This document shows positions 6,001 through 31,345 of a stretch of DNA of 64,000 nt, piece after piece. The notes beneath the pieces are model-generated. The model made no database searches. It was not told the origin of the DNA and was given only the letters and a program-made list of their open reading frames with translations. Origin of the DNA: Dacryopinax spathularia (taxonomy: Eukaryota; Basidiomycota; Dacrymycetes; Dacrymycetales; Dacrymycetaceae); the NCBI GenBank assembly GCA_037974965.1, contig JBBPFI010000002.1:2542001-2606000 (forward strand), read 5' to 3'. Positions within the stretch are counted from its first letter, which is position 1. Every line of letters starts with the position of its first letter. A program made the translations under genes and the position numbers.

Positions 6001-6610
6001 ATGAGAAGGAATTGGTTTGATATGTCGGGTAGTTGTAAGCCGAGCTGGTCTCACGGGCTACGGCTGTAGAAGGTGGAGCATAGGAAGAGACACTGTACCA
6101 TGATCTGGAGGGCATACACTCAGCAATTTTTCGAGACGCATATATGCAGGTATATGCGCACCTTTGCGTCCCTGACTGTTCCTCCTCTTGCCTGAGCAAT
6201 CGTGCAGTTCTATCCTGATGCTCTTCCCAGTACATCCTGTCGTTACGCCCTAGCTGCTCAGGATCTCCTTGCAGCACCTGGTGGGCACGGTCCTGCCCCG
6301 GAAATCGGTACGCGTCCATCCCGTTTTGCTCGTAGTATTGTGGGTAGAGGACAGATGGATAGCCCCTCGCGTTCGTCACGGGGTATGCCGCAGAAGAGAC
6401 TTGCTGACTGCCTGGATATAATGTGAGCATATATGTTCTGATCTGTGTCGACCATAGCGCGGACTTACTCTGTCCGCTTGGGAGGGTGGCGGCAAAAGGA
6501 TAGACGGATGATAGAGCCTGAGCTGAGGTGGAAGCCTGGGGCTGAAAGGTAAACTGCTGTTGCGTCGGCAGCTGCTGACCCGTCTGCGCCGGCCACCGTG
6601 ATGGGTCCAT
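1..6610 (-). CDS. Scc2/NIPBL (Nipped-B) cohesin loader, C-terminus beyond window
   Basis: Loads cohesin on chromatin in the nucleus; the Coprinopsis rad9 gene belongs to this family. The best start is the ATG at 6610 ([11 protein letters not shown]), because the frame upstream has no ATG. The first ~250 residues are Gln/Pro/Ser/Tyr-rich and probably disordered. A conserved block at about 5560-5300 ([20 protein letters not shown]) is followed by a basic Ser/Lys tract and then helical HEAT-like segments spread over many short exons down to position 1 (for example 2128-2490 and 2487-2768). An early intron at about 6410-6470 is suggested by GTAAGT and a matching acceptor. The stop codon lies left of the window, so only the N-terminal part and about half of the HEAT array are present. 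The Helitron begins about 144 bp upstream of the start. Family call is fairly sure; exon ends inside the HEAT region were not all worked out. Confidence 0.75.
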
Positions 6611-6753
6611 GTCAAGGAGAAAACAGTCACCGGGCAACGGCGGGACGGAGTGACTTGAATCGAATGCCGACCCCCAAATTCCGGGATCGCGCTCAGTGTG
6701 AATGTGGCGAGCGCCCGTTAGGTAGGCTGCCAGTTCGCACGCGTCCCTGAGGT

Positions 6754-6769
6754 TCCTGGGACCTTTGGT
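6754..6769 (+). repeat. Left copy of 16-bp inverted repeat of the Helitron
   Basis: Sequence tcctgggacctttggt; its exact reverse complement lies at 25483-25498. Matching stops on both sides. It sits 144 bp upstream of the Scc2 ATG. Interpreted as the 5' asymmetric terminal repeat; chance cannot be excluded, because one 16-mer inverted match somewhere in 64 kb is not very unlikely. Its placement at both ends of the element is what gives it weight. Confidence 0.5.
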
Positions 6770-6975
6770 TCCAGGTCTCAGGGGGAGGAACTCGCTGCAC
6801 AAAAATACATCCGTTTTGCAACCCTGGCGGACGTAAATGGAAGTCGGATGGAGGTAAAAGGGGAGGACTGTTGAAAGACAGATGGACGGTCTCGGTCGGC
6901 GCCGTCTTTAGTCTGTTTCTTTCCGCATTCGGTTTCTGTCTGTCCGATCTCTGCCGTGTCTCTTTCCGATTTCCG

Positions 6976-8489
6976 ATGCATCGGTTCTTCGACAATGCGC
7001 ATGTTGTCGGTCTCGTCGCCGACATTTTATTGTCTGCGCGTCTTTATAAGACCTTGGCCAGTTTGGCTCAGGTCGCACGATGCATGTTTCCTGCTCGTCG
7101 TCGACTCATGCTTCATGTGACAGAGGGGTCTTTCCGAGCTATCATGCGTCAGGTGTGTTTCTTGACCGTTGTTCCTGTCTGTTTACTGATCTGTCGGCGG
7201 TACAGCCATGGTCTACGTATCGAAATTATGTCCAGTCTATTTACTCGGCGGACATTCGACTTGAGAACAATCGAGACGTGACGGCTTTCATTGCTGCGTC
7301 TGAGGCGTTTCTGACGTCTGTCGTGGGGCCTTTCGCCAACCTTCGCGTCGTCTTCTTCGAGACGCGCTCCACGAGGACTCTGTCAAATTTGCTGGATATC
7401 CTGCCGCCTGTCGTCCGGTCGTTCGCTATTCGGATAACGGATGCTGTTCCGTCTTCGGCAAGAGACCTTATGGAGCAGTTCTTTCAGCGTCTGCCGGACA
7501 CGACTCCGCAGGTCGTTCGGTTTTCGTTCCTGTGGCCGATCGCTGTCTCGACGTCTCTCTATGCGGAACCGCTCTGTCGTTTCGCTGTGACTGTCAATTT
7601 ACGGTCGCTTGTCGTCGATTCAGGTGGTCTGGATGCTACCGGTTTGGGACTGCTTCTGTCCTCGCCGGTCCTTTCGGCATTGACGATCGTGGACGACTTG
7701 GATCAAGCTGTCAGTTCACGTCTTTTCCCGACCGGCACAAGTTTCAGTACCCGAACGATCCGGTTCCTCTCGTTACGGGGGACTGTCTTTGGTCTTTCCC
7801 TCTTCTTTCAGTCGGTTACCTGTTCAGTCGCAGAACTTTACCTCGACTGTCGGATCGAGGCGGATCAAGCAAGAGTCGGAACACTGTTGAGCCTTATATC
7901 CGCCAGCCCAGTGAATCTTCACGTCTTAGACATGCGGTTGTCTGGGTTGTTGCCACCGGGGGAGTCTTTACCCGCGTCGACTTTCGTTCCCTTGACCGGT
8001 TGTTTCGCTTTGCGCTCATTCCGGCTTTCATATCGAGTTTCCGGATTCTTACCGCTGAACGATAACGGCCTTCGAAACGTCATTCGGGACTGGCACGACG
8101 TCGAAGACATTCGCATTATCTGGACGGATCCTTTGTCGGACACGAACTTATCCCCTTGTAACGGGCTTCTGTCCTCGACAGACCTGTCAATTGTCGGCCT
8201 TGCTACTCTTTTACGACATTGCCGGTCGCTTCGGTCTGCGTCTTTCTCAACAGTGGCCTTTCCCGACAATGGTCAGTATCCCGTACCTGCAAGGCCGACA
8301 GACTCGTTCCGTCTCTCGATTGACGCGATCGAGTGTGCTAGTGATATTGTTGTTGCCTTTACTATCGCATCGTTCTGGCCGGGTCTACGGATTACTTTTC
8401 GACGTCGGGCTGACTTCGAACGTTCCGCTCATATTCATTTTCGGGCTCTTGCTATTTTACAAGGCATTCGTCGATGTCACGGACTGTAG
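6976..8489 (+). CDS. F-box/LRR-like protein carried by the Helitron
   Basis: Two exons: 6976-7152 and 7206-8489, joined in phase across a 53-nt intron (GTGTGT...TACAG with a CTGAT branch-like site). The product is 486 residues. Residues ~8-60 look like a degenerate fungal F-box (NAHVVGLVADILLSAR...LASLAQVARCMF), followed by a W-x-x-Y segment after the intron. The rest is regularly spaced Leu/Val-rich stretches (LRSLVVDSGGL, LSALTIVDDL, IRFLSLRGTVF) typical of basidiomycete F-box/LRR proteins, which recruit targets to SCF ubiquitin ligases. It is the first gene of the element, on the same strand as Rep. Codon use is rich in TCG/GTC/CGT and poor in A, like the rest of the left half. Fold assignment is by eye. 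It may be a captured host gene, as these families are large in Agaricomycetes. Confidence 0.6.
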
Positions 8490-8766
8490 TACAGGACTGT
8501 AGATTTCCAGCTGTAGCATCCAGGTTTCTCTTCTAGTTTCTGTTGTTGTTTGTAGGTTACGGTATGGCTGGTCCATTTAATTGCATCGTCTGTTCCATGA
8601 CTTGGCCTGTCATGTCGGTGATCTGTGTTTCGGATGACGTCACTACCATTATCTAAGTGGGATGACGTGATCCGGACCCCTTTATGTCCGCGGTTCTGTC
8701 AGACTGATCAGTCGCGACGCTGTTTTCCTTTTATCCGCTTAAAATTCTCGTAGAGGTACGGGGACA
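8490..8766 (+). promoter_or_regulatory. Intergenic region upstream of Rep-helicase
   Basis: No gene seen. It contains a CRE/ATF-type palindrome TGACGTCA at 8635-8642, and the octamer GATGACGT occurs twice (8633-8640 and 8661-8668). It probably holds the Rep promoter, because F-box stop and Rep start are 278 bp apart on the same strand. The binding role is inferred from the motif only. Confidence 0.3.
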
Positions 8767-11700
8767 ATGTCTGTGTCAGCGAACCCAGGTAAGTTGTCTG
8801 AACCAATGTAGTGTTGAATTGGCTGACGTTCTTCTTTTACCTGCTCTGTCGCCGTTTGTCTTGTTGACTGGTTGTTCTTCTCCGTGTCTCTGTGCATTCT
8901 AGGTCTACGTTTTGTTACTCTGACGAGGGGAGACATTGGTCCTGTTCGGGAGGAGGACGGTCGATGGGTCTTGAGTGTGACCGAGTTACGGGTCTGGTAC
9001 GATCTCCTGGGCGTGTTCAGTCATGTTGATGACATGCATCTGTCCGCTTTTGACCGCGATCCGCGTGATATTGTGGTCAACGGTCACTCCCTGGCGGACA
9101 TGGCTGACATATACCCGTTCTTTTCCAAGTCGGAGATCATGTACATTCTAAGTCGGAGTCATTTGACCCTTCCTTTAAGGTCCAGGGCAACTCGTACTGA
9201 CTTGTATAGTCTCATGAGAGGCTGTAATTGTCCGTGTGCGTTATGTCATCAAGTGTGTTACGTCTTTCGGTGTAGATGGTCTGCCCGTCGCACAGAACAA
9301 TTGGAAAGGATTGGGTTGAACATAGGTAATGTACCGCGATTGAGAAGGGACCGTGGTGGTAGAGAAGATGTGTCTGAGTCGATCCGTGAACAGTCAAGAT
9401 GTACAGGTCCGTTCGAGTCGACTTCTGTTTCAAGTCGTGACGTTGATGGGCCGGACTTGATCGGTCTGGACGGAAAGCATCGCATTATCAATCAAGTCAC
9501 TGCATCGTTATCGGTATCGGCACAGAGTCGTAAACCTTGCGGTGCTTGTGGAATCTCATGCACAGCACAGTCTCGCGTCACTTTATCAGTTGAGGACATT
9601 GACTGGAACTTATTGACAAACGATGCCGTGCCTGAGAACCTGTATCCTTCCACTTATAATGTGGAAGCTTATGGACGCGCTCTTCTTCATGCCGGTGCTT
9701 TGTCGAATTTAGATTGCCGTGCTGGGACAGTTGATCTCTGTCACCCATGTACGGCGTCTCTAAGAAGTGGAAAGACTCCGGAATTCGCTTATGCGAATGG
9801 GTACTACTTCGCGCTAGATGCATTGCCAGGTCCTGTCCGAGATGCTTTTGGAAGAGCGTCTGTCTTCGACCTGATGCTAGTATCAAGGGTCAGAGGCACG
9901 ACAATCACTTTCAAATACAGTGATAAGCCGTACACAACAGACTACGGCAGACCACGGTCGACTTCCCAGTCTTATACTAAAGGGAACGTAATGATTCTGC
10001 CACAGGATTATCTCAGGCTTAATTCGGTATTGCCCCCGCCTCCTGACGAGATTGGGAAGTCTGTCATAGTCCTGTTTACTCGTACGATGTCTGGAAGTGA
10101 TCGGAATCTTCGGTCCTTCAGGCCGGTCATGGTTACTCCCAGTATTGTCCGAGTACTCATCACTTTCCTGTTAAGGGAAAATAAGGCGTACTCGACTGTC
10201 GGGAACGGGTTTGAAGGCCCTACTGAATACAGTGCGGAAAATTTTCAGTCTTTGTCAGTGTCAGTCGGTACTCAGGTACCATCTGGTATACCTGCTTCGG
10301 TCAGTATAGGATATCTAGGCGAGAATGATCCGTCTGACGTTACCGGATCATCCTATGACGGTCGTGAGTTTGTTGCCTCCTCAGACGTGCTCTCGAATGA
10401 TCTGCTTGTCAATACCGTAGGCTGGACAGACAGCGACTTGACCAATGCAAATTACGACCGTATGAAACTTAGTGCTTTGTCGTGGTGTTTGGAAGGAAAT
10501 CCCTTTTTAAGGTCTGTAGCCGGTTCGCAGTCCATTCGAGACTTTGACTGTCCAGAATTATTAACGTGGATGTGGCCACACCTAGATCCTTATGGCTTGT
10601 TTCGCTTTGGTAGGGATCGTACCGGGAGGATCGTCGACCTAAAGCGTCAAGTCAGGCATCTATTGTCATTACACGATTCTCCTTTTGCAAGGGACAGCTC
10701 CTTTTCTTTTGTTTGTTATAACATTATCAGGAAGAGGGAGATTTATCGCACTATTCGGTTTAAAGTCCGGTCATCGGAAAGGAATGCACTTTTACAGAAG
10801 CTTTCAGATCTGTCTCCAGATCGTCTTAGAGAGTTTGAGAAGAAGTCTCGCGCTAATCCGAGTTATGTACCGCAGACCGTCGAGGAAAGGAACATAGTGT
10901 CTTTGCTTCGGCGCCTGTCCTTGAGTTGCATAGACCTACCGGGGACGTCTGCTTACAAGATAAAATGTAGGAACGAGATCCGCAGTATGTTCAATGTACT
11001 TTCTACGCCCGCTCTGTATGTGACTATCAATCCGTTTGACCGAGGGCATCCTTTGGTACGGATGTTGGCCGGTGAAGAACTTACAGAAGATCAGGCTTTA
11101 CAAGGTGATCTGGACCTTAATGCCTTTAGGCGTGCGCTTACTGCTGCGAAGAATCCGGTTGCTGCTGTAAAGTTCTTTGATATCGTCATGCAATCTTTTG
11201 TGAAAGACGTCTTGCGCTGTGGTGACCATGAACCGGGTCTGTTCGGTCGGTGTACTGGTTATTACGGCATGGTCGAAGCTCAAGGTCGTGGGACGTTGCA
11301 CTGTCATTTTCTAATCTGGGTGGACGGTCATTTACCACCTCAGTCCATGCGAGAACGTCTTAGGAGTGATCAGGTATATAGAGATAGGTTATTTAAGTGG
11401 CTTGAAGACGTGATAAAGTCAGAATTACCGTCAAATGCTACCGTTGTCGATGAAGTACCGTCTCAGCGTCCTGAGAGACAGTCATCAGTTGACCCGCGGA
11501 CGCAGTCGGTTCCTGTCACTTCCGGTCTATCTGATGAGTCGTTCTGTAGCGTTTTTAAGAATCATGTTGAGGCTCTTGCCGTCCAATGTAACTGGCACGT
11601 TCATACGGCCACTTGCTGGAAATATTTATCGCCCACAGACAAACGGTCCGATGCAAACTGCAGAATGCGGATGGACGGAACGACTCAACCTGTCACTGTA

Positions 11701-14700
11701 ATGGAACCTGGAACTGGGACTGTTTGTCTTCGACGCTTGCATCCAAAGATTACGAACTATAACGATGTTTGTCTGTTCCTTTATCGTTGTAACATGGATA
11801 TCAAGTTTATTGGTTCTGGTCAGGCAGCTAAAGCTCTCATGTTCTATATCACAGATTACATCACTAAGTCTGATCTGCCTTTGTACGAAGGCCTGTCTGC
11901 CTTGGCTTACGTGATTGACGCTACCGGTACTTCGCTCGTGACTGGTCACTCGTTACAAGAAGGTCAGGAAGATGAGTCTTGGAAGACAGTGACACGTTTT
12001 ATGAACGCGGTTATGTCACGTCGTGAAGTTTCACAGGCACAGGTACTGGCTGACCTTCTCGGGTATGAGGACAGGTACACTAGTGGGTCGTTTGCCTTAC
12101 TCCGACTTGGTGCCTTTGACCGTTTGGTGGCTCATCATGATGATGAACCTTTAGAGTTCTTCCATCATCGTACAGATCAACAGCGTACCTTCTCTGAAAG
12201 ACCGTCCTGTCGTTGTCTGGGTGGAGAAACCGACCCTCCCGGTACTGATTTCGACCCTCCGGATGCTCTAGAAGATGTAATGTTCAGTACAGAATCTATT
12301 TCTGCTTCGAACCAACAGCATGATTACATGTACAGGCCAGAGACAGACGAATTCGACTGTCTGAGTTTGTGGGACTTTGTCGCTCGTACAGTAAAGTACA
12401 AAAAGCGAGGTGGTCATGGATCTGGTCATGGAGGGGGTCGTAGTCGTAATCCACGTGCGCCTTTCCGACCGGGTCATAGACAGCACCTGACCCATTATTT
12501 ACAGTACAGGGATGTTCCTGTGATTCCTGTCCTTCTCGGACCATCTATCCCGCGACTGGATGGATCTCCATCTGTCTATGAGTTATGGTGTCGATATATG
12601 CTTATTCTCTTTAAACCTTGGAGACTACCGTGTCATTTACGTGACCCGGGTCGATCATGGGCAGAAACTTTCGAAATGACAGAATTTACTGCCAAGAGTA
12701 AAGAGATCATGGCAAACATTTGCATCCAGAAAGATTGTCAATCTGTTCGCGATGATTTAAGGACCGCTAGGAGACGGCACAACGGCGGCCGTTCCGGTCT
12801 GACTACAGACACTCCCAGTCTGGCTGAAGCTCTGGATGACGCGAGAGACCTCACGGATATGATCATGGACGATCCTGATCTTGACTATCCTTTCTGGACG
12901 TCTGATATACTAGAGACGGCCGAAAATGTTCCGCTTGAGGTACAGTCTGCTGTAAGAGCTGCCCAGTCTGGTACATTACTTACTTCAGTCATGCCTACCC
13001 TGCCTACGTCTGTGACAGAGTTAGACGTGCAAGATGTTTCCGGCGTCGACCGAACAGACATTGAACATCTGCGGACAGTCATGGTCGAGGCTCGTCGTCC
13101 TTTCAATAATCAGGCGGTGCCACTTACAGACTCCTCTGTGTCTAGAACTAGACGAAGATCTGACGGCCACGAGCCCTTGATTGAAAGGTCTGTAAGACGA
13201 CGTCTGACAGAAACGACGCTACCTGACCGACAGACAGGCGGTCTTGTAACCGATAACATCGTCTCGGAGTTGCTGAATCGACGGAATATGAGTTCTAATA
13301 ACGAACAATGTAGAGCCGTTCGATTAGTAGCACAACACCTGTTTAGTGACAGTCCCAAGCAGTTGTTAATGTACATAGGAGGAGTTGCAGGCACTGGTAA
13401 AAGTTATGTTATAGAGACGATTGTAGAACTCTTTGACCGTCTGGGAAAAAGGTCCTCCTTGATGTTGACAGCTCCGACGGGCATTGCGGCTGTAAACATT
13501 AAGGGTTATACTCTTCATTCTGTCGCACAGCTCCGGGGACATCACCACAGTCAACGAAACTCTTCAGGTACGGACACTTTACAGGACCTCTGGAGAGACA
13601 AGACATACCTGATCATAGACGAAATTTCTATGGTCAGTGGCGGTCTTCTCAGTAAGTTGTCCTACAGGTTAAACGTGGCCTGCCGGCCGAGGTGGGGCGA
13701 TGACTCTTACCGTCCCTTCGGTGGTTTGAATGTGATTTTTACAGGTGACTTTGGCCAGTTACGGCCTGTTCTGTCACGGCCACTGTACCACCACGCTCTA
13801 GTCCGTCGAGTACCCCAAAACATCGCGGAATCAGTGATTGGTCAGACAGACCTCTTCGGTGTTTGTCTATGGAGACAAGTGTCCGTGGTAGTCCTCTTAA
13901 AGACAAACATCCGTCAAGAGGCAGACACAAAGTATTGCAACCTTCTCTACCGCGTCCGGAAAGGAATTTGTTGGAATGGTCTTCAACCTCATACTAGACA
14001 GCAGGTCGGTATACCCACTTACGGCAATTTTCAAGTTTCGGACTATGACGTCATCCGGTCTCGATGTCTGTGTTACCTCTTACAGAACCCGGACGGAAAG
14101 GAGGAGATAGCGTCGTTCCGTGAAGCTCCTTTCATAGTTACTACGAAGGTACTCCGGGACGAATTGAACAAGCGACGGGCGATATCAGTAGCCTCCAGCC
14201 TCGGTATGCAGGTTGAATGGTACCATGCGAGAGACTTTTTAGGAGCACAGGAACTGTCTGGTCAAGTACAGGAACGATTATGGCAACTAGGATCCACTTG
14301 GACCGAGGACGCCTTAGGCCGACTGCCCTTGTTCATCGGTATGAAAGTTATGGTCACTGAAAATGTCGCAATCAAGTACAAGGTCGTTAATGGTGCTGAA
14401 GGGACTGTGACAGGGATCCGGTACGAAACCCGACATGGCAGACGATATCCCGTGCTCGTCTTTGTCCATATTCCGGACTTTGGCATGACAGGTTATGGAT
14501 TACCACTTGATGTCGTTCCAATCCTTCCTGTCCGAAGCACTTTCAAATACAAGCCCAGGGACAGTCCGAAAGCTTTCTCCATTCGGCGAGTTCAGTTACC
14601 ACTCTTGCCCTGTTACGCTTACACAGACTATAAGTCGCAAGGACGTTCGCTGGACAGAGCTATCGTAGACTTAAAAGGCTGTCAGAGCATTCAGAGTCTT

Positions 14701-14895
14701 TATGTCATGCTGTCAAGGGTAAAGTCGTTGTCGGGCTTGCTAATACTGCAAGATTTCAGACCGACCTTGTTCAACTCATCCTTGGCTGAAGACCTGACTG
14801 CGGAATTTTCGCGGCTGGATCGCTTACATAATGAGACTTATGACCTTACCGTTCGGTCCCTTTTTCAGGGCCAGTACAATAACGCACGGGCCTAA
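8767..14895 (+). CDS. Helitron Rep-helicase (RepHel)
   Basis: Rolling-circle replication initiator fused to a PIF1-type 5'-3' helicase. The uninterrupted frame 8872-14895 encodes 2007 residues (numbering below). Residues ~285-420 resemble the DUF6570 region (LCHPCTASL...YANGYYFAL). The Helitron-like N domain (~740-1010) carries the HUH motif H810-C-H812 (GTLHCHFLIW) and the two catalytic tyrosines Y992 and Y996 (FYITDYITK). The helicase has Walker A G1504-S1511 (GVAGTGKS), Walker B D1583-E1584 (LIIDEISM), YKSQGRSLD and a C-terminal YVMLSR at ~1944. All key residues are present. A better start is the ATG at 8767: exon 8767-8788 (MSVSANP), intron 8789-8902 (GTAAGT...TTCTAG), then 8903 onward, in phase. 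The ATG at 8872 would lie inside that intron. The gene appears functional. Confidence 0.95.
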
Positions 14896-15099
14896 CCGCG
14901 TCTTCCTGGGATGGTCAGTGCTTATATAATGACGCTTACGAGTGTACCCTTCGGACCGTTCCGCAAGGACAGAACTGTGGCGCACAGTCTGACCTCGTAG
15001 GGAACAGTACAGTGGCGTACTGCCTGACCGCGTCATCCTCGATGGTCATGTCTGATCCTTTCCGACAAACACCTTGACTTTTACCTCTGCTCGTCCTCA
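14896..15099 (+). repeat. Intergenic with near-duplicated 26-bp segment and TATA-like site
   Basis: A segment just after the Rep stop (about 14893-14918, accgcgtcttcctgggatgg) is nearly repeated at about 15026-15050 (accgcgtcatcctcgatgg). Two further similar stretches lie between them (acagtctgacctcgta and gtactgcctgaccgcgt). A TATA-like ttatataatg lies at about 14922. It is likely the Rep 3' end plus the promoter of the gene at 15100. No protein-coding content was recognised. Confidence 0.35.
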
Positions 15100-15667
15100 A
15101 TGCCGTCTAGTAAGTCTGGTCGTTCTTCTGCTTATTTCCCTGTCATCTGACTGTCTCTACACAGTAGCTGCAATTGACCGCAAGGTCGTGTGTAACGGGG
15201 ATATGCCCGTCACCGTCACTGTCTACAAGTCCTTCAACCTCTTACGCGGTACTCGTCCGACTGGTCGCGAGACACCGCCCTCTGTCGATTCCGACGTGCA
15301 CGTATATGCAACAGACATGTCTATATTCTACTTCGATGATCCTTTACCCAACGGTACATACCAGTGCTGGTTTTGGGACGCGATCCTAAACACTTGGCGT
15401 CACGGTTGGGAGAAATGTCCCAATCCTCGGTCTAACTCTCAGCTATTTCTCTCAACATACAAAAAGCCGTCGTGGGTTTCTTGGAAGGCAGTTGACCGTC
15501 GGAAACGAGAATGGGAAAGTCACCAGGTAACAATGTTAGCGCGTTCTGTATCTCGTCACTGAACTGAATACGTGATTCAGGCACGATCCATTCCGACTCC
15601 TGTACTGTCCCATTTACCGGTTTTTACTGTCGATACCGTGGGGAGACTGTACCAGGTCTGTAACTGA
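15100..15667 (+). CDS. Small spliced Helitron-carried protein of unknown function
   Basis: Three exons fit in phase: 15100-15109 (MPS), 15165-15526 and 15581-15667. The introns are 55 and 54 nt with GTAAGT/ACAG and GTAACA/TTCAG ends. The product is 152 residues. Visible features are VVCNGDMPVTVTVYKSFN near the N-terminus, a Trp/Cys patch (GTYQCWFWDAILNTWRHGW) at mid-length, and a basic stretch (KAVDRRKREWE). No family is recognised. An alternative end skips the last stop through a third intron (15656 to ~15702) and adds about 40 residues ending near 15825. A reading from 15074 without the first intron would give a false signal peptide made of intron sequence. Same strand and composition as Rep, 205 bp downstream of it. 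Confidence 0.45.
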
Positions 15668-16161
15668 AACTGGCGACTTCGTCTTACTGATCATGTGTAT
15701 AGCTGCCTGCACCTTTCTCTTTACAGTCTTTTTCTGGGGACACCGATCGCTGTCAAGTACAGCTGTCTTACGTGCGTCGGTTACCTATCGTTCGCTTTAT
15801 TTCCCTGATTTTATTGTGACAGGAGCAGTCGCATACTCCCGATAACACAAACTGTATAGTCGATCGTGACTCTGACCTTTGCCTTGTACGGCGGTCCGAA
15901 TTAGTAAAGCTGCGTCAAGATGTCTCCACCGGTCACCTTTATCGTCATCTTCCTACATCTTCCACTTCAAAGCTCGATCACCGTCTGGCTTGAAGCCTGA
16001 CTGTCTGGCCTAAAGCCCGATTATCCGGCCTGATATCCTGTCCAGTATGAACCCTTAACATTACTCGGACGTCATTCTGATAAATCGCAAAGATCTATTC
16101 TGTTTTTTGGAACTGTATCGTAATTGCCTCATACACGTCCTGGTCCTGTCCGACTTCTCTG
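15668..16161. other. Gene-free stretch with 20-bp imperfect hairpin repeats
   Basis: No coding gene is supported beyond a possible extension of the upstream gene. Three imperfect 20-bp units follow one another at 15983-16002, 16003-16022 and 16023-16042 (gtctggcttgaagcctgact, gtctggcctaaagcccgatt, atccggcctgatatcctgtc). The first holds the perfect stem ggctt-g-aagcc. They lie between convergent genes, so they may mark transcript ends or a structured site used during transposition. Confidence 0.35.
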
Positions 16162-17477
16162 TCAACAACCTCCTTTCCCGTCGCTCGGAATTCGCATTCC
16201 TTTCCCGTCCAGTGTCAGTGCGGTTACTTGACTAAATGGTGACCGACTGCTCACCTTGTGCAACACTTCCCACGTACCCAAATGAATTACGTGTTCCAGT
16301 AGCAAGTTAAGAACCGGACCACGGTCTAGATGTAGTAATTCCACTGAAAAGGCAACGTCGACGAAGTCTCCTTCTGTAAACGCAAGGTTTGTCGCCGGTC
16401 GTACTTCTCCGGTCGTGGTCCGAACACCAAGCGTCACAGGCTTTCCAGGTATCCATCTGTCGGCGATCTTTCTAGCGGCACCCTTTGGATCGTCTCGAGC
16501 AGACAATGAAACAGACACGCCTTGACGATTCTAGAAGACGGTCAGTCTGTCATAACAACTTTAAGATAACGACACTTACCTTTCGGAACACTTGCCTGTA
16601 GAAGGACAAGGCACTAGACGGTCCGTCTCTGAAAGGTGCTACTACCTCATGTGTGCCGGTTGCGGCATATACATAAGTCCGCAATCTATTAATGTTGTAT
16701 ACTGTACTCTTCCAGGCGTCATCATGACCACATCCCGTCACAGTTATCGACTGAACTGCTCGGCAGGCGTCTTTCTCAAGCCTAAACATCTGAAAGTCAG
16801 GCGTTATAACATGAGCATGTCTCGTGTACGTACCCGGTCCAGTTCCCCAGCCTACTAAGCCTCGCCGTCTTTAAGTGACCTTGCAGACGAATATATGCAG
16901 TCAACATTGGCGTCCTGGGTAAAGGACTTCGTCCCTTCCAAATCAGTTCCCAGACGACACTGCGACGCCCTGGTTCCCTTTTAGACCTGACGTCGAACAC
17001 TTCGTCTAGTCCAGCTGCTGTCATAGGTACTATGAAGGTCTGATCGTCCATTTTCAAGTTGAGTTCGACGTGCTGCCAGGTGTCGCGAAGAAGACCGCTC
17101 TCATCTGATACGGTCATGAGTTCTTTCAGTCCTGTCTCTCTGAAATCACTCACGACCGAACAGTGCCATGGCCGGTAGAGACTGGATAACCAGAAACGCG
17201 GTCGCTTCCACATTTTTCTTTGACTCCATCGGTCTACTATATATTGGTCCGACAAAGTCCGATCGATTATTTTGTCCCTTTTCAGATGCCTTGACAGGTC
17301 TAGTACCAATTCGGATGCCGTTACTCGTGTCCTAAGTACTTGGACTGGTGCTCGATACAGACCCATCCGGGCATCAGTTCCAGGCGTCAGAAAGAATTCT
17401 TCACTTGCTCTTGGCGGTGTCATTTTCACACAGTAACCATCACGGTACAGTTCCCGCCGTGCGTCTTGACTGACCAT
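16162..17477 (-). CDS. Unknown three-exon Helitron-carried gene
   Basis: Exons on the minus strand: 17477-16834, 16781-16580 and 16530-16162. The introns are 52 and 49 nt, GT-AG and phase-matched. The start is MVSQDARREL; a further upstream exon reading (MIFLVTEYGG, near 17530) is possible. The ~405-residue product has conserved-looking segments: a central EVFDVRSKREPGRRSVVWEL, a middle KDACRAVQSITVTGCG, and a C-terminal TEGDFVDVAFSVELL...LEHVIHLGTWEVL block. No family was identified. The C-terminal pattern (acidic Asp, D-x-V, then a beta-rich stretch) recalls the end of the gene at 17992-19728, so the two may be related. The C-terminus is uncertain because a GTGAGC donor occurs ~90 nt before the stop. 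Divergent from the next gene. Confidence 0.5.
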
Positions 17478-17991
17478 GAACCCACGCAAACAAATCGAAG
17501 ACCACCGTATTCAGTCACTAGGAAGATCATGTAAGTAACGGCGTCATTCCGTACCGGCAAGACGATTTGCATCCGACCTGGTCATTAAAACGAAAATTAA
17601 CCTGTTTCAGAACGATCAAAAAACGTTCTCAAGACGTTCTAAATAGGCCCTTCTTTACGAATACCGCGTTCCTGACATCCAGGTACAAGTCAACATCAGC
17701 ATGGAACAACTTCGAGCTCGGTACGGATAAGGCGACTCTACCAATCACACGTCCTGTCTGTCCGATATCCTCATATCGCGGAGCTCTGGAAAGAACTAGC
17801 AGCCCGTCGATGACGTCTGTCCATCAGTCGTCTTTCCCATCGTCTTGCGAATGGTACTGCTTCTTAACCCCCTCCCGCCCTTGAATTACGCTAGTATGAT
17901 TACATACAAGGCCGCCGAAGTCTTGTCCAGCCAGGTTATATAAATCTCTCACACTGCTCCCTTCCTGACAACGAAACGGACCGGCCAGGAA
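17478..17991. promoter_or_regulatory. Divergent intergenic region between two cargo genes
   Basis: It lies between the start of the minus-strand gene (17477) and the plus-strand gene (17992). Open frames here (17567-17884 on +, 17824-18030 on -) show no spliced or family-like continuation. A TATA-like ttatataaat occurs at about 17936, 50-60 bp upstream of the plus-strand ATG, which fits a promoter. It is otherwise uncharacterised. Confidence 0.35.
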
Positions 17992-19728
17992 ATGAAGAGA
18001 AAGGGGCCCCAATCTGCCCACTCGGATCAAGGTTCTCGTTCTAAACGCTCAAAGTCAGTATTTCGTCTGCCAGCTCCCACGTCTTACCCTTTCTTTGACC
18101 ATACTGTTATCGATCTCCTCAGAACCGTTCCATCTGACCGGCACGACACTGCGACTGACACGACGATCTCTGGCACGGAAGATTCATCCACGCCCCCGTC
18201 ACAGAGTGATCTTCTCGACAGGACCAGTCAAGCCACGACAATACCGGACAATCATATCATACCCCAGACAGGAGACTTGACCGACATCGAAACAGTTATG
18301 GTTACTGTCCCTTCATCGCCGGGTTAGTCCTTTCTTCTCTAGACTCTTTCCCACGTGACCAATGGAACTTCAACAGGAACTGCCGGTGCAGAAGCAAACG
18401 TGACCGTTTCACGGACGGTAACCACAACGGTGTCACACGTCAATACCGCGACTTCGTCTGACTCGCCGGCTTCCGTTCACGATCCTTTCCATGTGTCCTC
18501 TTCTCCGGAAAACGCGCAATTGGGTCCTCCGAAAGCCCCTACCGACACGGTCCGTTCTACTGACAGGTCCGGCAAGATCATATCCCCACACCCGTCCGTT
18601 TCCAACAGGTGATATATGTCCTTCATTCTTGATACTCTCGGCGCTAATGACACTTGACAGTCCCGTTTACGACAGATTCGGCAAAGTCCTAGGACCTTTC
18701 GTGGGTCCCTCATTCCTGACCGTCCTGAACATTGAAAATGACTTGACGATAAATAGCACAGTGAAGTACCAGAAGACAGCCAGTGGGGTTTTGATGAGGC
18801 CTTGAACCGGTAAGTCTCCACATACTAAGTTTCCGTCCAAGTCGACCAGGCGGGACTAAGCCGATCTAGACGTATTTCCGTCTTCATGTCTCGATCAGAT
18901 CCGAAAAATTCGACATACAGCATCTCGAGATTACCGCCGCGTGAGGTCCTCGATTTTGAGGCCAAGTCAGGCAGAGACTTCACCGAGTACTTATTCGAAA
19001 CACCGGCTTATCGACAGCGAATCCGACCTGACAATACAAAGCGCGTTCCGGTCACTATCTGGATCGTCGGCAAAATTACAGGGCTCTTCCTTTTCACGTC
19101 CGCTGGTGCGCCTGAACGACAAGCGAATGTCATGTTCAAACCGCTGAGAGATTCGGACCTCGTCGCTGCGAAAGACTTGGTGTCAAGGTACACTCACGAT
19201 AAATGTAAAGTCCTTCTCTGCTTCGTCCCGACAAGGCAGACTGACTAGAATTGTCAGATTTCATACCTTTCGGAGGCTCCGACTCTGTCAGGGCGGGTAA
19301 ATGGATGACTAAACGCGTACCTGGTACCCCTGCGGAAACAGTACAGTCTATTTCCCGTACACGTATCCGTCACACTGCCTGACCCGTTCCAGGTCGAACC
19401 CTTTACCTCAATTTACGATGCCACTACGGTATTTCAGGCAAAGTCCAACATGACTCTCGTCCGTCCAGAAGCCTTGAAAAGAGACGACTTGGCCCTTTTC
19501 GAGCTTCATGTCAGCCGGTTCCGTGACCGACTAGTGACTGACGACTTTTCGTCCCCAACAAGGTCCGGCGGCAGGACGAACACAGGATCTTCCATGAAGG
19601 CGCCGATCAAATGGCGCGCTACTCTGGTTCTTAAAACTATTAATTTGCTGCATTCAAGCGACATTGCTGACGACGCTGAGTCGACGGACGGAGGGAATGG
19701 TTCTGACAATGAGTTCGAACCTATTTGA
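17992..19728 (+). CDS. Unknown multi-exon Helitron-carried gene with disordered N-terminus
   Basis: Supported exons: 17992-18322, 18377-18608 (intron 18323-18376), an exon from 18661, then one including WGFDEALNR at ~18784 joined across GTAAGT...CTAG to RISVFMSRSD at ~18870, and a tail to the TGA near 19728. The junctions around 18700-18783 and 19190-19260 are ambiguous. The N-terminal ~200 residues are Ser/Thr/Pro-rich with a basic start (MKRKGPQSAH...SKRSKS), perhaps a nuclear signal. The ordered part includes EVLDFEAKSGRDFTEYLFET, FIPFGGSDSVRAGKWMTKRV and a C-terminal TLVRPEALKRDDLALFELHV...WRATLVLKTINLL, then an acidic tail. This end pattern is reminiscent of hypothetical proteins frequent in Agaricomycete genomes, but I cannot name a family. 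Confidence 0.5.
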
Positions 19729-19934
19729 CATGTTCTGGCCCATGCAGATACTCTTGTAGATAAAGACCTGGTTACCGAATAGAACATATATCTCCATGAC
19801 TCAGTCAAGGAATAGGATCATCGCTCTGTCAAGTTGTCTCATAAAGAAATATATAATCAGTTCCTCCGCGCGACATCGACCGTACCGCTATTGTCAACAA
19901 AAAGTACATCAGCTTCCGATTACTTCCGTCATAC

Positions 19935-21230
19935 TCAGACAGCCCGCACAGCCTCCTTCTCCTGACGCAGGAAATACTCGTCCATCACATAGGCGTTGAC
20001 GAGTAAAATGAAGTGATACTCTTCCCCCAGAATAAACATATAGTCCTCATCTAGTTCACTGCGAGGACTGTCAACGTCACTGCAAGACGTGTCGGACCTC
20101 CAGCTACCGCAGCTCGCACTCTCGTCGTCAGGCTCCGAAGTAGCTTCCGTCCCAGAATCCGCTGCGTCGGTCATTGCCACGTCAAAGTCAGGAGAAGTGA
20201 CCCAATCCACCACAGAGTCGTGAACGAACGACTTCTACACTTTTTGTCAGTACAAAATAAAGCATCGTGACATGCTGGAATACTTCAAGAGGCTCCTCTA
20301 CGCGACCTGAAGGGGTACTTTGAGAACCAGTAGACCGGACCATGTTAAACACCGGCGTACCTGCATGAACCCTTTCACGATCCAGAATCGAGAAACTGAA
20401 GAGTCTCTCCACTTCCAAGTCAAATGCTGATCCGAAAATGTCATCATGACCGTAACAGACACGTGACTGGTCTGTCGAGTATTGCAGTGTCCCGTTTCTA
20501 TATCCTGGTCTATATCAGACCTCCGCATACAGGCGACGATGATCAGTATGCGTACCTCCTAACTCCTTTGGCACATCGAGTCCTACATAAAAAAGGCAGG
20601 TCAGCTACCTTCAAATTCTTACTGAGCTCCAACGTGACGACTCACCGTTAACAACCACGATTTCTTTCCTAGACACTACCATCAGTGACGATTGCAGTGT
20701 GGATGAGAACAAACACTTGGATCACTGAACAGAGGCAAGGCTGTCACCTGCCCTAACGGATCCTATTGATTCGTCGGGCAGTCACGTTACTGATCCACGC
20801 ACGCGTTCCAGTGACACGTCCTCGACGAGTCTTTTCGCAACTGCCAGGACCTATGTCAGATCATCTCAGTACAGACGCGTGCAAAGCTCTCTTAGAAGGC
20901 AGATCTCTTACAGAACACATCGTCCAGGTCACTGACTTGAGCCCGATATGCACTACGCATGAGTCTAATGCGATTACATACCGGTACGCCACCGCACCCA
21001 TAGACGAAATTACGGTTACTCACGCTTGTCAGTAGTCTTACTCTCAATGACGGTCTCGAAACAATAACCACCACCTGCACATTCGCTCTGCAGGCAGACA
21101 TCAATCACGGTGACATACAACAATTTGACATTGTCAATATCGAAGACTTCGAAACATACCAGTATCAGAATTACCGGTACAGACCTCACCCTACCGTCCG
21201 TTCTCCTAAACTAAAACCTTCCTAGTGTCG
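19935..21230 (-). CDS. Unknown multi-exon Helitron-carried gene, Cys-rich core and acidic C-terminus
   Basis: Pieced from short minus-strand exons, so ends are approximate. At ~21160-21010: FEVFDIDNVKLLYVTVIDVC followed by a Cys-rich stretch, then a GTGAGT...TTAG intron and HSCVVHIGLKSVTWTMC. At ~20590-20360: CAKGVRR joined to PGYRNGTLQYSTDQSRVCYG, then DDIFGSAFDLEVERLFSFSI and a GTACGC...TTCAG intron. Then RVEEPLEVFQHVTMLYFV, an acidic Asp/Glu/Ser run at ~20190-20050 and a final YHFILLVNAYVMDEYFLRQE before the stop at 19935. No family is recognised. Protein-like character in consistently joined frames supports a real gene; the number of exons and the start are not settled. Confidence 0.35.
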
Positions 21231-21665
21231 TCATCCTAAAAAGGATCACGCCAATCTCACTCTCAAAGCACATCTACGGATCTCCGAAGTACAGGTCAAC
21301 AAAGACAGACATCACAACAAAGCGCCCTTGTTGTGTAGTCAATAACATCCTGTATGAACACGCCTGACAAACCCAGACAATCTAGTACAACAGAGTCTGT
21401 TAGACATGTAACAATAATTTATCGTCTGGTCAAGCATTAACATGACGACCTGCCTGACTCCTTTCCCAACCTCGACCGATCACACCCCACCAGTCCGTTC
21501 CAAGTCACAACAAGATAATATTACAACCACAATCACCCAGTCAACAGTCAAAACAGTCATCACTTCCAGTCCATTTCCGAGTCCCATAACAGTCCAGTCT
21601 TTGAGCAGTTCAAGACAACATCTTCATGTTCCAGTCCGTCCCCAGCATATGCGTGCCCGTATCTC
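21231..21665. other. Intergenic stretch inside the Helitron
   Basis: It separates the 3' end of RPA1 from the start of the unknown minus-strand gene. The plus strand is rich in A and C and poor in G. No splice-supported coding sequence was seen; the frame at 21442-21669 is low-complexity Thr/Ser and overlaps the RPA1 stop on the other strand. Confidence 0.3.
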
Positions 21666-24246
21666 TTAAACTTTCTGAGCACCAGAACCGCCGGTGACAG
21701 ACTTGTGACTTTTCAGAGGTTCGGCCCGAGTAATGTTGTATGCGACCGTCGACGTCATCTACCACGGTTCAGCAACGTCAAACGGAATAAAAGTCAAAGA
21801 CAATCTTACCTGACTAACACGGGCAAGAACAGTAAAGGTGTACCAGACTTTAGCATCTGTGATGATTTCGTCGAACTTCAAGTCTTCCGCATTCTAAACA
21901 GATAATCAGACTACTTCACAGACAAAAATTATCTGCCACCAATACTTACCTTTAACGCCTCCAGCTGACAGACATCAATTCCCAGAACTCTTTCGGCGAC
22001 GCGGTCAAACATAGTAGCACGAATAGACTCAATTCCGTCCGATATTTCGACCTCAACACGATAACTAGTAATACATCAGTAACAGCCCGTTCATATATGC
22101 TGAAATAGTGACAAGAGACCCAGTCACTTACCAATAACGAGGTTCATCAACACTCCGCCTACATACGCGACACTCCCACAGTTCCTTCGTTTCTACCTGA
22201 ACCACTCCCTCGCTATCGACCACGTCCTCGACCTCCCCGTCCTCGTTCTTGATCTGGATGGGATATTCGACCAAGAACTTATTCACCGAACCGTTACAGC
22301 CGGGTATCCTACACGCGTTGTAGGACATACGATCTGTCTTGATAGACTTGAGTTCTGCTCGAGTCTTGAAAACTGCCTTTTCTCCCTTCGACCCTAGCTC
22401 GTTCATGACCGCATCCGTTATACTGGTCAGACCTTCACTAGATGTGGTCGACGACAGTCGTTCATTAGCAGACGCCGTAAAGGCCGCATCCGACAGTTCG
22501 ATAAAAAGCTCGTCCCTGTTCTCGTTGAACCTAGAAACAGTTAGAAAGTGACTTCAACCTGAATGAAATTAAACTCACCATTGTAGAAGAACATTTGCTT
22601 CAGGAATGTCGGGGTCAAGTACGATCCTAGTTCCACTCGTCATAGACAAGCTCAGACCATTGAATTGACCAAGTCTGACGGCCTGCAACATAACGACGTC
22701 CCCGACAATTCCATTAAACGACTCCGCTTCGTCCCCATAAAGTACGACACGGCAGGCGTAACCCGACGAATCGACGACTTGAAGTTCCCGCAACATGCAG
22801 CCTTCATCGAGTGGCGTTACAAGACTAGACGCAGGCACGAAAGTCTCTGCGATATCAATAGGCGCACGATTAGCCGTTTCAAAGTTATGGAATCGGGCTA
22901 CGTCGCCGACAAGATTGACGACAGCCAAGACATCTACAAATGATATCAAAAGACTGACACAGATCATATGACTAACAACATACCACATCGTGTATTCTTG
23001 TACCCGGGAAGGTCCTTCAACTTTACGAAGTCATAGGTCAACGGCGGTACCTTGTCAGTCTCGTCCAACTGTGACAAGTCAGCAACTATCCTGTCCAGCC
23101 AATAACAATTACGAACGGCAACAAACTCAGTAGCAGAGGTAAACTTGGCTTGAAAAGGCGATCCGACCGCGAAACGAGGATCCGGTCTCGATACGTCTAT
23201 CTTAGACACCGCATATACCTACCTCCGTCGGTCAGTAACAAGCAATAATCCAGAAAACACGACCATACCTTTCCCACTTCAAGTTCATCCGTCTTTGCGA
23301 TAACCTCGGAGTCCCACGCCACTGCACTAATCTTCCCCTACTCCGCAGCTCAGAACACGCCACCAAGGTAGCATATATGCTTACCGACGCGTCTTGAAGT
23401 GTCAGGTTCGACACATAAGAACCGGGCTTAGACACCAACTCCGTCCCTCCAGTGTTCCGCACTATCCGAACACGAAGTTTATACCTGACAACCAGTCAGA
23501 AACGATAGTCCTACCCCGGCGAGACCAACTTACTGTCTCAATCCAGGTCTGAGGTCAGCGATACGATGGTACCCGTCCGAGTCCGTCCTCACTCCAGACA
23601 GGACACGACCGACAGGCCCCCCTCCGGACAAAACACGACCGACACTCCCATTGCGAGCACCCCGAATAACCGTTGACGTAGGTGCAGGTCGAGTAGACCT
23701 CGACGGACCCGCTTCAGGTACGGGCACCGGGTTAGTCGTAGCATAAGGCTGGTAACCAGGGAACTGTTCCGTGATCTTGTCGACTTCAGTCGTGATTTCT
23801 ACTGGGTCGCCGATACGCCGCTTACAGGCTCTGACTGTATCGATCGAGCAAATGATAGGAACACTGAACTCGATCAACCGACAGGCTAGCATCACAGACA
23901 GATGCTCACATGTAACCTGCCGCTATGTGCCGTTTGACGCCCTTGACTTTGACGACGTCAAGAACAGTCACTGCACCTCCCACGACTTTCGCGTGTTGAT
24001 AAGTGGACAGCATGATTGAGATTGCGTGAGTCCCGTCACTGACAATAATCCTGCACAGATATCAGTCCTTGTATGCGCATACATTTGTCACTCCACTTAC
24101 TTGTGTCTCGGCGGATCAAGCGGACGACCGTTCACGCTGACCTTCTTCAACGACAGGAGCTGCACGACAGCCTCGTCAGGCGGCGAAGAATCCGTCAATA
24201 CAGACCGACAAAAGAAAGGAGTAAGTATAGGTTCGATAGTAGCCAT
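21666..24246 (-). CDS. Replication protein A large subunit (RPA1/RPA70) carried by the Helitron
   Basis: Single-strand DNA binding protein. Eleven exons all join in phase: 24246-24101, 24050-23910, 23863-23534, 23484-23385, 23337-23269, 23218-22984, 22933-22579, 22530-22132, 22064-21950, 21893-21810, 21758-21666. The product is 688 residues; host RPA70 is usually ~600-630. The N-terminal OB fold (~1-110) shows LLSLKKVSVNGR and VSDGTHAISIML. A linker (~115-205) is Pro/Gly/Arg-rich with two GRVLSG repeats. DBD-A (~205-340) has LTLQDASGKISAVAWDSEV. DBD-B (~340-460) has LQVVDSSGYACRVVLYGDEA, LGQFNGLSLSM and DPDIPEA. DBD-C (~460-688) has the zinc-ribbon cysteines C-x4-C (CRIPGC) and C-x2-C (CRVC), then EISDGIESIRATMFDRVAE. 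Nothing essential is missing. Plant Helitrons are known to carry RPA-like genes; a role in protecting the transposition intermediate is inferred. Confidence 0.93.
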
Positions 24247-24729
24247 GATACAGTTAAGTGAACGTTAGAGAAAGAGAGACGAGGACAGTGACTAGTCCGA
24301 GAGCAACGACCATTAAGTCCCCTGTACGGAATCAATTACATGTCACGTGAAATTGATTTTAGTCATCTGACCGCGTCTCCGAATGCCTGTCTCTCGTCTT
24401 ACTCTTGCTACCATACCACTTTTCCGACTACCTCTTCCTCCAGCTAACGACTCATTCCCACCGACATCTTCGCCTGACAATCCACTTTATCGATACTTAG
24501 CAAGTAGTCCGGGTCTAAATCGACTTCGACGCCGACGGACAAGTCTAAGACAACATACCCACAATGTCTAAGCCGACAGACGACCCAGGCCGCCACCAAA
24601 ATGACCACCGACCCCCCAAATCCTCCGTCTGTCCGCTAACGGTCCCAATACGCCGTCCCTAATACGTCCCAGACTACTCTCTCGTCCACGACGACAGCCC
24701 CCGCAATTACAATCAACCTTAATCTGACA
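24247..24729. promoter_or_regulatory. Divergent region between RPA1 and the right-end gene
   Basis: It lies upstream of the RPA1 ATG (24246, minus) and of the plus-strand gene. Two short plus-strand frames start at 24383 and 24568 (MPVSRLTLAT and MSKPTDDPGR) and may be 5' exons of the gene at 24730, but no convincing splice join was found. It probably contains both promoters. Confidence 0.3.
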
Positions 24730-25269
24730 ATGGATGGCCAAACTCCGTCCGTGTCCTATCATGACTCGTCAGCACGAAACGCAGAAGCCGGTCCAAGCAG
24801 ACCACAACTGCCCCAACCCAGTCCTCAGCCCGACAACCCACGTCAAAGCAAACACCCATCAGTAACTGACATCCAAGAACAAGAAGACGACGTCGTCTTC
24901 ATCGCACACTTCCCGAACAAACGGCCACGTAATCCAAGGACAGCGTCAAACGGAAAGGTACGCCTGTTCTACGCGCGTAAAGAACCTCAGACAGTCCTTG
25001 ACCTCGACCCACAGAACTCAGACAGGCAACGACAGACCCAAGAACCGCCAAAGGTACCCAAGGACAACCCGTCAGACAATCGTCCCGTTCAACCAGACGC
25101 AACTAGACCAGAAGACCGTCCTACACAACTGGGAACGACCACTCGACAGACTCAGTCACTTGCAAGAAACAGACGTCCTGTACCTCAAATATCATCACAA
25201 GAGTCCGTCCCACTCAATAAACACAACCTGACAAGTCTGACGCCTAACCAGAGTGCAACTCTTAGCTGA
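24730..25269 (+). CDS. Disordered Helitron-carried protein, unknown function
   Basis: The start MDGQTPSVSYHDSSARN leads into a Pro/Gln/Ser/Asp-rich, probably disordered protein with the acidic patch QEQEDDVVFIAHF. An in-phase intron is likely at about 24958-25014 (GTACGC...CCACAG with a CTTGACC branch-like site). After 25100 two frames look protein-like. One is NWERPLDRLSHLQETDVLYL near 25115-25180. The other is LLAEAYIIAELADENEKRTQ near 25258-25320. A further splice may therefore move the true end to about 25340. It is the last gene before the right terminus. No family is recognised. Confidence 0.4.
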   Translation: MDGQTPSVSYHDSSARNAEAGPSRPQLPQPSPQPDNPRQSKHPSVTDIQEQEDDVVFIAHFPNKRPRNPRTASNGKVRLFYARKEPQTVLDLDPQNSDRQRQTQEPPKVPKDNPSDNRPVQPDATRPEDRPTQLGTTTRQTQSLARNRRPVPQISSQESVPLNKHNLTSLTPNQSATLS

Positions 25270-25482
25270 AGCGTACATTATCGCTGAACTTGCCGACGAG
25301 AACGAGAAAAGGACGCAGTCCAATAACAGAAGCAGATGACATCGACAGGTAACAGACAGGACTAAAAGAACAGACTCAGTGATACCTAGTTAGTGACAAA
25401 GACCGTTCAGTATACTACAACGACAGGCGACTGTACTCGGACAAAGTAATTGCAGCCTCATTACCCTAAAGTCTGTCACGTG

Positions 25483-25498
25483 ACCAAAGGTCCCAGGA
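25483..25498 (-). repeat. Right copy of 16-bp inverted repeat of the Helitron
   Basis: Sequence accaaaggtcccagga, the exact reverse complement of 6754-6769. Just left of it is the palindrome gtcacgtgac at about 25475-25484. The offset from the presumed 3' end, with a hairpin in between, fits the asymmetric repeats described for Helentron/Helitron2 elements. Confidence 0.5.
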
Positions 25499-25500
25499 CT

Positions 25501-25511
25501 GCGCGGAGCGC
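25501..25511 (+). other. Putative Helitron 3'-terminal hairpin
   Basis: gcgcggagcgc forms a 4-bp GC stem (GCGC/GCGC) with a GGA loop. Helitrons end a few bases after a short GC-rich hairpin that acts as the terminator of rolling-circle transfer. The element would end shortly after it (about 25513-25523); a CTGA occurs at 25520-25523. The stem is short, so this is suggestive only. Confidence 0.4.
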
Positions 25512-25513
25512 CC

Positions 25514-26293
25514 TTCTATCTGACATCGTGAAGGTCGCGGATGCAAAGTGATCGGCGGGCGTCGATCAAACGGACAGCCTAAGTAGAGTCTGCGCTGGAG
25601 ACATGTTTTCAGCTACTGTATGCCCTTAGAGCCATGGCCACCGGCAGTCGAGCTGTCAGCTAGGTGGACTAGCCTACGGTGAACTTTAAGAGTCTCATTG
25701 AGGCCTGACTTGCCGAAGTCGAAGGGTCACTGACGTTGACTATCATTCATAGAATTGCAGGGTTGGTTGGCCCAGATTGAGACTTCTGCGCTTGTAACCT
25801 AGTTGATGTGTAGTAGACTAGTTGATGTGTAGTAGACCTGCACGCTCTGTCATGTTGTACAATTTCGGCCTGCGTGTCCTGTGAAACGGGCTCCGTCAGA
25901 CATAGGATCGTCTCTCATCAATTCCACTCGCGGTGACTCAGTCGCGACTCAAACGGAAGTCAGACATAATTACAGTATTTGTGTCGAAAGCTAGATGCCT
26001 GGGTTTCAGATGCTCTCCAGTCAACCTCCATGCAACGCTGGCCAAAATGGAATACTGTAATAGTATGTTGTGGAGGAGCGAGCCATGGAATTGGCGCCCA
26101 TATTGTTTGCGTCCGTCCCTGTCACGTAACTTGAATGCAATGCGGGGTAAAGTCCGCGGACTATCGGGGGTCAACCCGTATATATAAGTATATATAAGTA
26201 TGACCAGTCCAATGCCGTCTCCTGATCACCGTTCGGTGTCCCTAACTCAGCACCTCCCCTGCAAACCGCGTCGCTTGACCGCCGGGCCCAGCA
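25514..26293. other. Host intergenic region right of the Helitron
   Basis: No gene is supported. It contains a perfect 19-bp direct repeat (ctagttgatgtgtagtaga) at 25799-25817 and 25818-25836. A doubled 10-bp TATA-rich unit at about 26179-26200 (gtatatataa twice) is the likely core promoter of the VOC gene that starts ~95 bp further on. If the element limits are right, this stretch once formed the upstream region of Scc2. Confidence 0.45.
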
Positions 26294-30755: not shown

Positions 30756-31345
30756 TGTAGAGGTCAGGCGGTTGACAGTCTCGAACGTCTGAGCGTACTG
30801 CACGCGAGCGCTCTCGTTTTATAGGCGTGCGTCTTCCATTCCGTACGGATATGAGGCACTGAGCGTCAACGAGTATTCGGACGTCATCAGGTCGACTTGT
30901 TCCCTATCCGGCGACTCCAGTGATCATCAGCACGATGTCAAAAGCTATTAGATTGCGACAAGGAGTCAGGATGTCTGATAGCAGCACGCAATGATGCGCC
31001 CAAGAGTATTCGGGAGAGGATGGACAGGTGTCGCCGAAGTGGCGTAGGGACGAATTGATGCGCTGAGAGAATCCTGTGAGTTTGTATTGCAGCCGACTCT
31101 GAATTCAGGGACTCACCCTTGGACTAGTCAGGCCCGGCTTGCGTTGCAAGTCGATAAAGAATAGAGTCCGCTAGAATAGCCAACCATTAAGCCCTTATTA
31201 GTTGACCCTATCTCCACACCTGATTCTAAACCAAATCTTAATTGTAAGTTGTTGTATCATTAGCATAGCTGAATATAATTTCATTTCCTACCCATATTCT
31301 TTATTACCCACTCCATCCTCCTGTCTCCCATTCCCATCTTCCATT
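30756..31345. other. Intergenic left of the heptamer satellite
   Basis: Promoter side of SDR copy C (ttttata at about 30816), then AT-richer sequence. No gene is supported. Just before the satellite, degenerate units (ctgtctcccattcccatcttccat) suggest it grew from a pyrimidine-rich seed. Confidence 0.4.

Follow-up and report, generated by a model that had tools for sequence, protein, structure and literature searches.

Introduction

Helitrons are best known for picking up fragments of host genes, and those plant Helitrons that have RPA genes carry canonical termini; how Helitrons move long single strands intact is, to our knowledge, unsettled. The Helitron2 type has an asymmetric inverted repeat, terminal at the left end and subterminal at the right, with no RPA-like gene reported for the Fusarium Helitron2 elements in the consulted part of the source describing them (PMC5148889). 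RPA partners of the Rep-helicase transposase (RepHel) have been reported in plant Helitrons and in Helentrons (PMC4067079, in part), and a TET/JBP gene is carried by some fungal Helitrons (PMC12730594, in part). Here we describe an 18.8-kb element, at positions 6754..25518 of a 64,000-nucleotide stretch of the Dacryopinax spathularia genome (‘the window’; G000:C2:2542001-2606000, from an assembly of 29.2 Mb in 24 contigs), which we identify as an intact Helitron-type rolling-circle transposon, the rolling-circle step being predicted from sequence. It is, we believe, in all likelihood an autonomous element of the Helitron2 type with a co-inherited set of some seven accessory genes. Throughout, W denotes the window copy, B, C, D and N its relatives in the same genome, and C1, C2, C4, C5, C6, C7 and C11 contigs.

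Results

An open Rep-helicase and a conserved gene order

The RepHel gene (8767..14895, +, from which the strand of the element is taken) consists of a short first exon (8767-8788) and an intron (8789-8902), both assigned by eye, followed by a main exon (8903-14895); the corresponding frame is open from stop to stop for 2,022 codons (8827-14895). Its product matches the Pfam families Helitron_like_N (1.5e-30), PIF1 (5.4e-23) and DUF6570 (3.2e-19), and contains an HCH sequence equivalent to the HUH motif, the two-tyrosine motif YITDYITK, Walker A, DEISM and the later helicase motifs; the initial annotation, made from the letters of the sequence, had already described an unbroken Rep-helicase with its catalytic motifs, and this is what we find. 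Pfam hits to this 2,022-aa frame, taken to an E-value of 1, include no endonuclease domain. The Rep frames of B, of D and of the C2 copy of family C are likewise free of stops.

A translated comparison of W with B, D and C, together with a spliced-alignment script, reveals that RepHel (+), g2 (+), g3 (-), g4 (+) and an RPA70-like gene (-) occupy the same order and strands in all four families, with g6 (-) and g7 (+) additionally matched in W, B and D. In total, seven accessory genes (LRR-like, g2, g3, g4, g6, g7 and RPA70) have protein-level support in related elements, or eight genes when Rep is included, in agreement with the earlier proposal of at least seven genes beside Rep. This arrangement bears directly on the possibility that we are looking at a Helitron with unrelated host genes captured by chance, its cargo being passenger DNA bound to decay: the same genes are found in the same order despite Rep proteins that are 48–57% identical to that of W (45–55% by tblastn).

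Transfer, selection and co-occurrence of the gene set

Family B has copies on contigs C4 and C1 that are 20,323 bp in length and identical base for base, yet sit in different flanks; a third, on C7, is cut by the contig end but is identical over the 16,671 bp present, and again lies in a different flank. From the identical 20-kb copies it follows that the whole gene set was transferred intact, and we take the comparison to indicate that the set moves as a unit in relatives of W, much as had been supposed at the outset. D is a single copy on C6 (20,337 bp), 71–76% identical to B over longer blocks and 65% over one 864-bp block, and family C is represented on C2 (21,393 bp) and C11, its two copies showing 98.7% identity in the first comparison, of 12.4 kb, and 99.1% in another of 1.2 kb at the right end. 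Finally, N is a 4,996-bp element on C7 that matches B over just 61 bp at the left end and 46 bp at the right, which is what one would expect were the ends sufficient in cis. The interior of N (G000:C7:269801-275200) also contains, by eye, an inverted pair, AATTGAGCAGGGCTAA, near both ends, as if an inverted-repeat element were nested inside.

Ratios of non-synonymous to synonymous substitution rates (dN/dS) were calculated by the NG86 method for B versus D in 15 blocks, chosen as conserved open frames, a choice that favours low values. All 15 fall below 0.5: Rep 0.094 (1,961 codons), RPA70 0.032 (632), g4 0.032 (226), g2 0.074 (132), g3 0.101 (260) and LRR-like 0.185 (445), plus, for those genes where part of the conserved blocks was used, g6 (0.178, 0.083), g7 (0.117, 0.059, 0.409, 0.234, 0.47) and g9 (0.105, 0.345). 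Synonymous divergence (dS) lies between 0.70 and 1.51, save for g4 (2.15) and one g6 block (2.40), which are nearing saturation; between W and any of B, D or C it is saturated. These values indicate that the accessory genes are under purifying selection between the cousins B and D.

The same figures help in judging whether the extra genes might be selfish or aimed at the host (an F-box-type protein that acts on host proteins would be one example) and travel with the transposon without belonging to its transposition machinery. The LRR-like gene would fit such a role, being more variable (at 0.185), belonging to a large family and moving within the element; however, constraint is strongest in RPA70 and g4, and a single-strand-binding protein suits transposition better than a host-directed function. 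We regard this explanation as quite improbable.

Turning to the genome as a whole, Helitron_like_N is listed at 45 loci, all above the cut-off, and matches to g3 (30 rows) resolve into 15 distinct loci. Thirteen of these lie no more than 12 kb downstream of a Helitron_like_N Rep locus and converge on Rep (binomial 4e-25, same-family copies being non-independent); a fourteenth belongs to the truncated B copy with which C7 begins, and the last, at C5:1825789, is without a Rep locus. A distant element, with a Rep 38% identical to that of W (C6:1169064), also has g3 (1e-14); next comes a weak g4-like match (E 0.025), with order and strand preserved. All 19 genome rows for g4 fall in W, B, C or D copies, as do seven of the eight for g2 (the eighth is at C6:1204786); matches to the RPA70-like and LRR-like genes also occur elsewhere in the genome. 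Because the g4 rows and all but one of the g2 rows belong to these elements and most g3 loci stand beside Rep, most of the cargo does not consist of host gene fragments. Taken together with the low dN/dS values and the near-confinement of g2 and g4 to the elements, this makes chance capture unlikely, even granting that Helitrons are known for it, that relatives of the RPA70-like and LRR-like genes occur at other places in the genome, and that g7 is reduced in W and g9 differs among families. In our view the element resembles a mobile, self-contained set of genes and not a haphazard gathering of pieces of host genes, and its genes, to go by purifying selection and co-occurrence, may also work together.

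As a separate observation, the 45 Helitron_like_N matches span ~0.5–0.56, 0.65 or 0.72 kb of DNA, many of their frames being near 2,000 codons; the span lengths suggest at least three Helitron lineages in the one genome.

Ends of the element

The ends of W were set by comparison with related copies in differing flanks, and a T lies on either side. At the left, a 16-bp terminal inverted repeat, TCCTGGGACCTTTGGT (6754..6769, +), is perfectly complementary (16/16) to a subterminal repeat at the right (25483..25498, -); beyond the latter lies a conserved tail, CTGCGCGGAGCGCCCTTCTA (25499..25518, +), resembling those of B, C, D and N. The inverted repeat is therefore asymmetric, terminal at the left and ~20 bp inside the right end. 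The left boundary had been placed at 6754, exactly where the repeat begins, and the right at 25513, which is approximately correct, with the conserved tail taking the true end ~5 bp further, to 25518. Left junctions read T/TCCTGGG (the slash marking the boundary) in 7/7 cases (the copies on C4, C1 and C6, W, N, and those on C2 and C11), and right junctions CTA/T in 8/8 (the same seven plus the copy on C7), the flanking Ts being assignable to host or element alike. A hairpin with arms at 6755-6764 and 6773-6782, the first overlapping the left repeat, is formed at the left end of W; an equally good fold was obtained in 1/200 shuffles.

The left end of B, allowing up to three mismatches, occurs at six places in the genome, all inside these elements (W exceeds the mismatch limit). 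The right-end pattern was found at 11 places, five of them in these elements; the other six, with two or three mismatches, were discarded because a control gave four hits.

Saying this, a number of observations weigh against an autonomous element with a co-inherited gene set. W is without a close twin: its best-scoring other match in a DNA search of the genome is 66% identical over 1.7 kb, with shorter pieces elsewhere reaching 82%, and its own mobility is presumed from its relatives. The initial annotation had looked to several copies with shared ends and the same gene order, and this expectation is borne out among the relatives in the same genome but not by a second copy of W itself. The Rep of the family C copy on C11 contains two stops. 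The LRR-like gene has changed place: W and C carry it upstream of Rep, whereas in B and D it is found downstream of g4. It also has numerous relatives at other sites in the genome. Detected g3 genes accompany just 13 of the 45 Rep loci, so g3 is either dispensable for some Helitrons here or too diverged for detection, and g4 and g2 are confined to the W/B/C/D clade, weak matches aside. In W, g7 is short, with the N-terminal part alone recognisable (it is longer in B and D), and homology between g9 of W and the gene at the same position in B had to be rejected, 267 of 500 shuffles scoring as high. Most terminal hairpins, a feature looked for at both ends of a Helitron2, fold no better than shuffled sequences (64/200 for the 5' end of B; 81, 143 and 187 of 200 for three 3' ends). 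Lastly, a perfect 32-bp direct repeat abuts both ends of D (G000:C6:1684631-1704969), a feature unexpected for a Helitron.

This direct repeat, along with the perfect 16-bp inverted repeat, could be read as the mark of a cut-and-paste transposon bounded by terminal inverted repeats, the Rep gene being incidental to it. No DDE transposase domain was seen among the proteins scanned, however, and a script check of five copies for common flanks returned an abutting repeat in D alone, C1 having a 10-base match away from its ends. We reject a cut-and-paste origin, which we hold to be extremely improbable, because the copies end outside the right repeat, by ~20 bp or more.

The individual accessory genes

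The RPA70-like gene (21807..24246, -) matches Rep_fac-A_C (5.9e-17), REPA_OB_2 (2e-13) and Rep-A_N (4.8e-7) in Pfam, and among PDB entries it hits chains of RPA70, the best at 5.5e-29; the window model has 11 GT-AG introns, compared with 10 in each of two modelled cousins. The second RPA70-like gene, g7 (20853..21225, +), resembles the RPA70 N-domain and matches B (3e-9) and D (6e-9), the W model being weak; in the B version, neither the N-terminal domain (Rep-A_N, 0.0057) nor the C-terminal-like segment (2.6e-5) reaches the curated Pfam cut-off.

Between Rep and RPA70, g2 encodes a small protein (15100..15562, +; exon 1, 15100-15109, by eye; main exon 15165-15562) with matches in D (2e-21), B (3e-20) and C (5e-13); a Pfam search of it was without a match, and the best hit of a PDB profile search (E 1.1) is read as chance. 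For g3 (16162..17510, -; introns 16833-16782 and 16570-16531), the conserved part runs from 17135 to 16222, the N-terminal part being unsupported by relatives. Its best Pfam hit, DUF7195 at E 0.14–0.21, and its best PDB profile hit (E 3.2) are both taken as chance, and an AlphaFold model of exon 3 built without an alignment (mean pLDDT, the predicted local distance difference test score, 42.7) was not used for fold search. g4 (18886..19728, +; introns 19205-19257 and 19341-19392) is matched in the relatives; a Pfam search again gave no match, and a best PDB profile hit of E 0.042 is read as chance. Comparison of the g3 and g4 profiles with each other returned E 0.62, and a search of viral contigs for relatives of the two yielded 33 and 26 pattern matches respectively, none of them confirmed. 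By eye, both gave us the impression of oligonucleotide/oligosaccharide-binding (OB) folds, an unproven one.

The LRR-like gene (6976..8489, +; spliced model, intron ~7168-7205) and its F-box-like start were both named by eye; its protein matches D (2.9e-17), B (7.4e-16) and C (3.3e-8), and Pfam and PDB searches with the D version produced no matches. A g6 exon (19938..20234, -), partly acidic in sequence, is common to B (2e-8) and D (5e-6). Last in the element comes g9 (24730..25269, +), a 179-codon open frame whose membership of the common gene set is unsupported.

Composition and surroundings

The G+C content of the element is 49.4%, against 53.2% in the remainder of the window. To its left (window positions 1-6753) lies a gene on the minus strand with similarity to the cohesin loader Nipped-B/Mis4/Scc2 (PDB 1.9e-4 over 46 residues), the long N-terminal frame of which has no Pfam match; the element adjoins the 5' end of this gene, close upstream. 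The next frame to the right belongs to the glyoxalase superfamily, and the element seems to be flanked on its two sides by the 5' ends of host genes that are read divergently. Further along, positions 31318-31695 hold a tandem array of 54 copies of CTCCCGT.

Discussion

How might such an element move? We envisage that the Rep tyrosines would nick at the T-flanked ends, and that the PIF1 helicase would then peel off a single strand of ~19 kb; this could be coated by the element-coded RPA70, perhaps also by the RPA70-like protein of g7, with g2, g3 and g4 likely to supply further accessory factors, before the strand inserts at a T-T step in a new location. All of these biochemical steps, and the supposition that the accessory proteins would serve transposition rather than the host, are read from sequence. 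More tentatively, and with rather less than even confidence, we suggest that W and its relatives may represent a lineage of large rolling-circle elements encoding their own set for handling single-stranded DNA: RepHel, a full RPA70 alongside a second RPA70-like protein, and dedicated partners in g3 and g4. If true, a single strand of 19–21 kb would be peeled off and inserted intact, giving a Helitron a plasmid-like or virus-like self-sufficiency. Identical 20-kb copies, combined with a gene set under apparent purifying selection in a cousin, provide a natural setting for listing, and testing gene by gene, what rolling-circle transposition needs in the way of accessory functions.

In the open-licence literature we found no report of a Helitron2-like element from a fungus that combines two RPA70-like genes with several conserved accessory genes; within its coverage of fungal Helitrons we also found no RPA genes, F-box cargo or accessory-protein sets, nor any use of ‘giant’ or ‘large’ fungal Helitrons together with RepHel.

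With regard to classification, a Helitron-type Rep (HUH, tyrosines) and a PIF1-type helicase are joined here in one protein, as in the Helitron superfamily. The right end of CTA/T, and a T rather than an A before the left end in 7/7 copies, differ from the 3'-CTRR terminus and insertion between A and T of Helitron1, and there is no Pfam match up to E 1 to the endonuclease that is fused to RepHel in Helentrons. By its asymmetric terminal inverted repeat, and with no endonuclease domain found, the element fits the Helitron2 type, departing from the single RepHel frame given for that type in the consulted part of PMC4067079 through its seven further supported genes.

Several described systems share individual features with this locus. 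Plant Helitrons likewise have an RPA70-like gene beside RepHel, but counterparts of g2, g3 and g4 were not found in the consulted parts of their descriptions (PMC4067079, PMC4683698). Helentrons have a subterminal inverted repeat, a TT target, an RPA partner gene and short ends-only elements, as seen here, and differ in the endonuclease domain that the present element lacks as far as detected (PMC4067079, in part). The Proto-Helentron of Phytophthora infestans also has several proteins beside RepHel, although the set reported in the same partial source, and compared by description, is a SET-domain protein with hypothetical proteins (PMC4067079). Among fungal Helitrons, HELPO1 of Pleurotus ostreatus has its RepHel followed downstream by one to four additional genes; it is listed at 7 kb, however, with a RepHel frame reported to be without an RPA domain and extra genes that vary among subfamilies (PMC4289320, in part). 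FoHeli of Fusarium oxysporum shares with our element the asymmetric terminal inverted repeat, the Rep-Hel protein and the absence of an endonuclease domain; according to the consulted part of its description it lacks an RPA-like gene and has, besides the transposase, no more than one additional frame (PMC5148889), whereas the element described here has some seven accessory genes and other terminal sequences.

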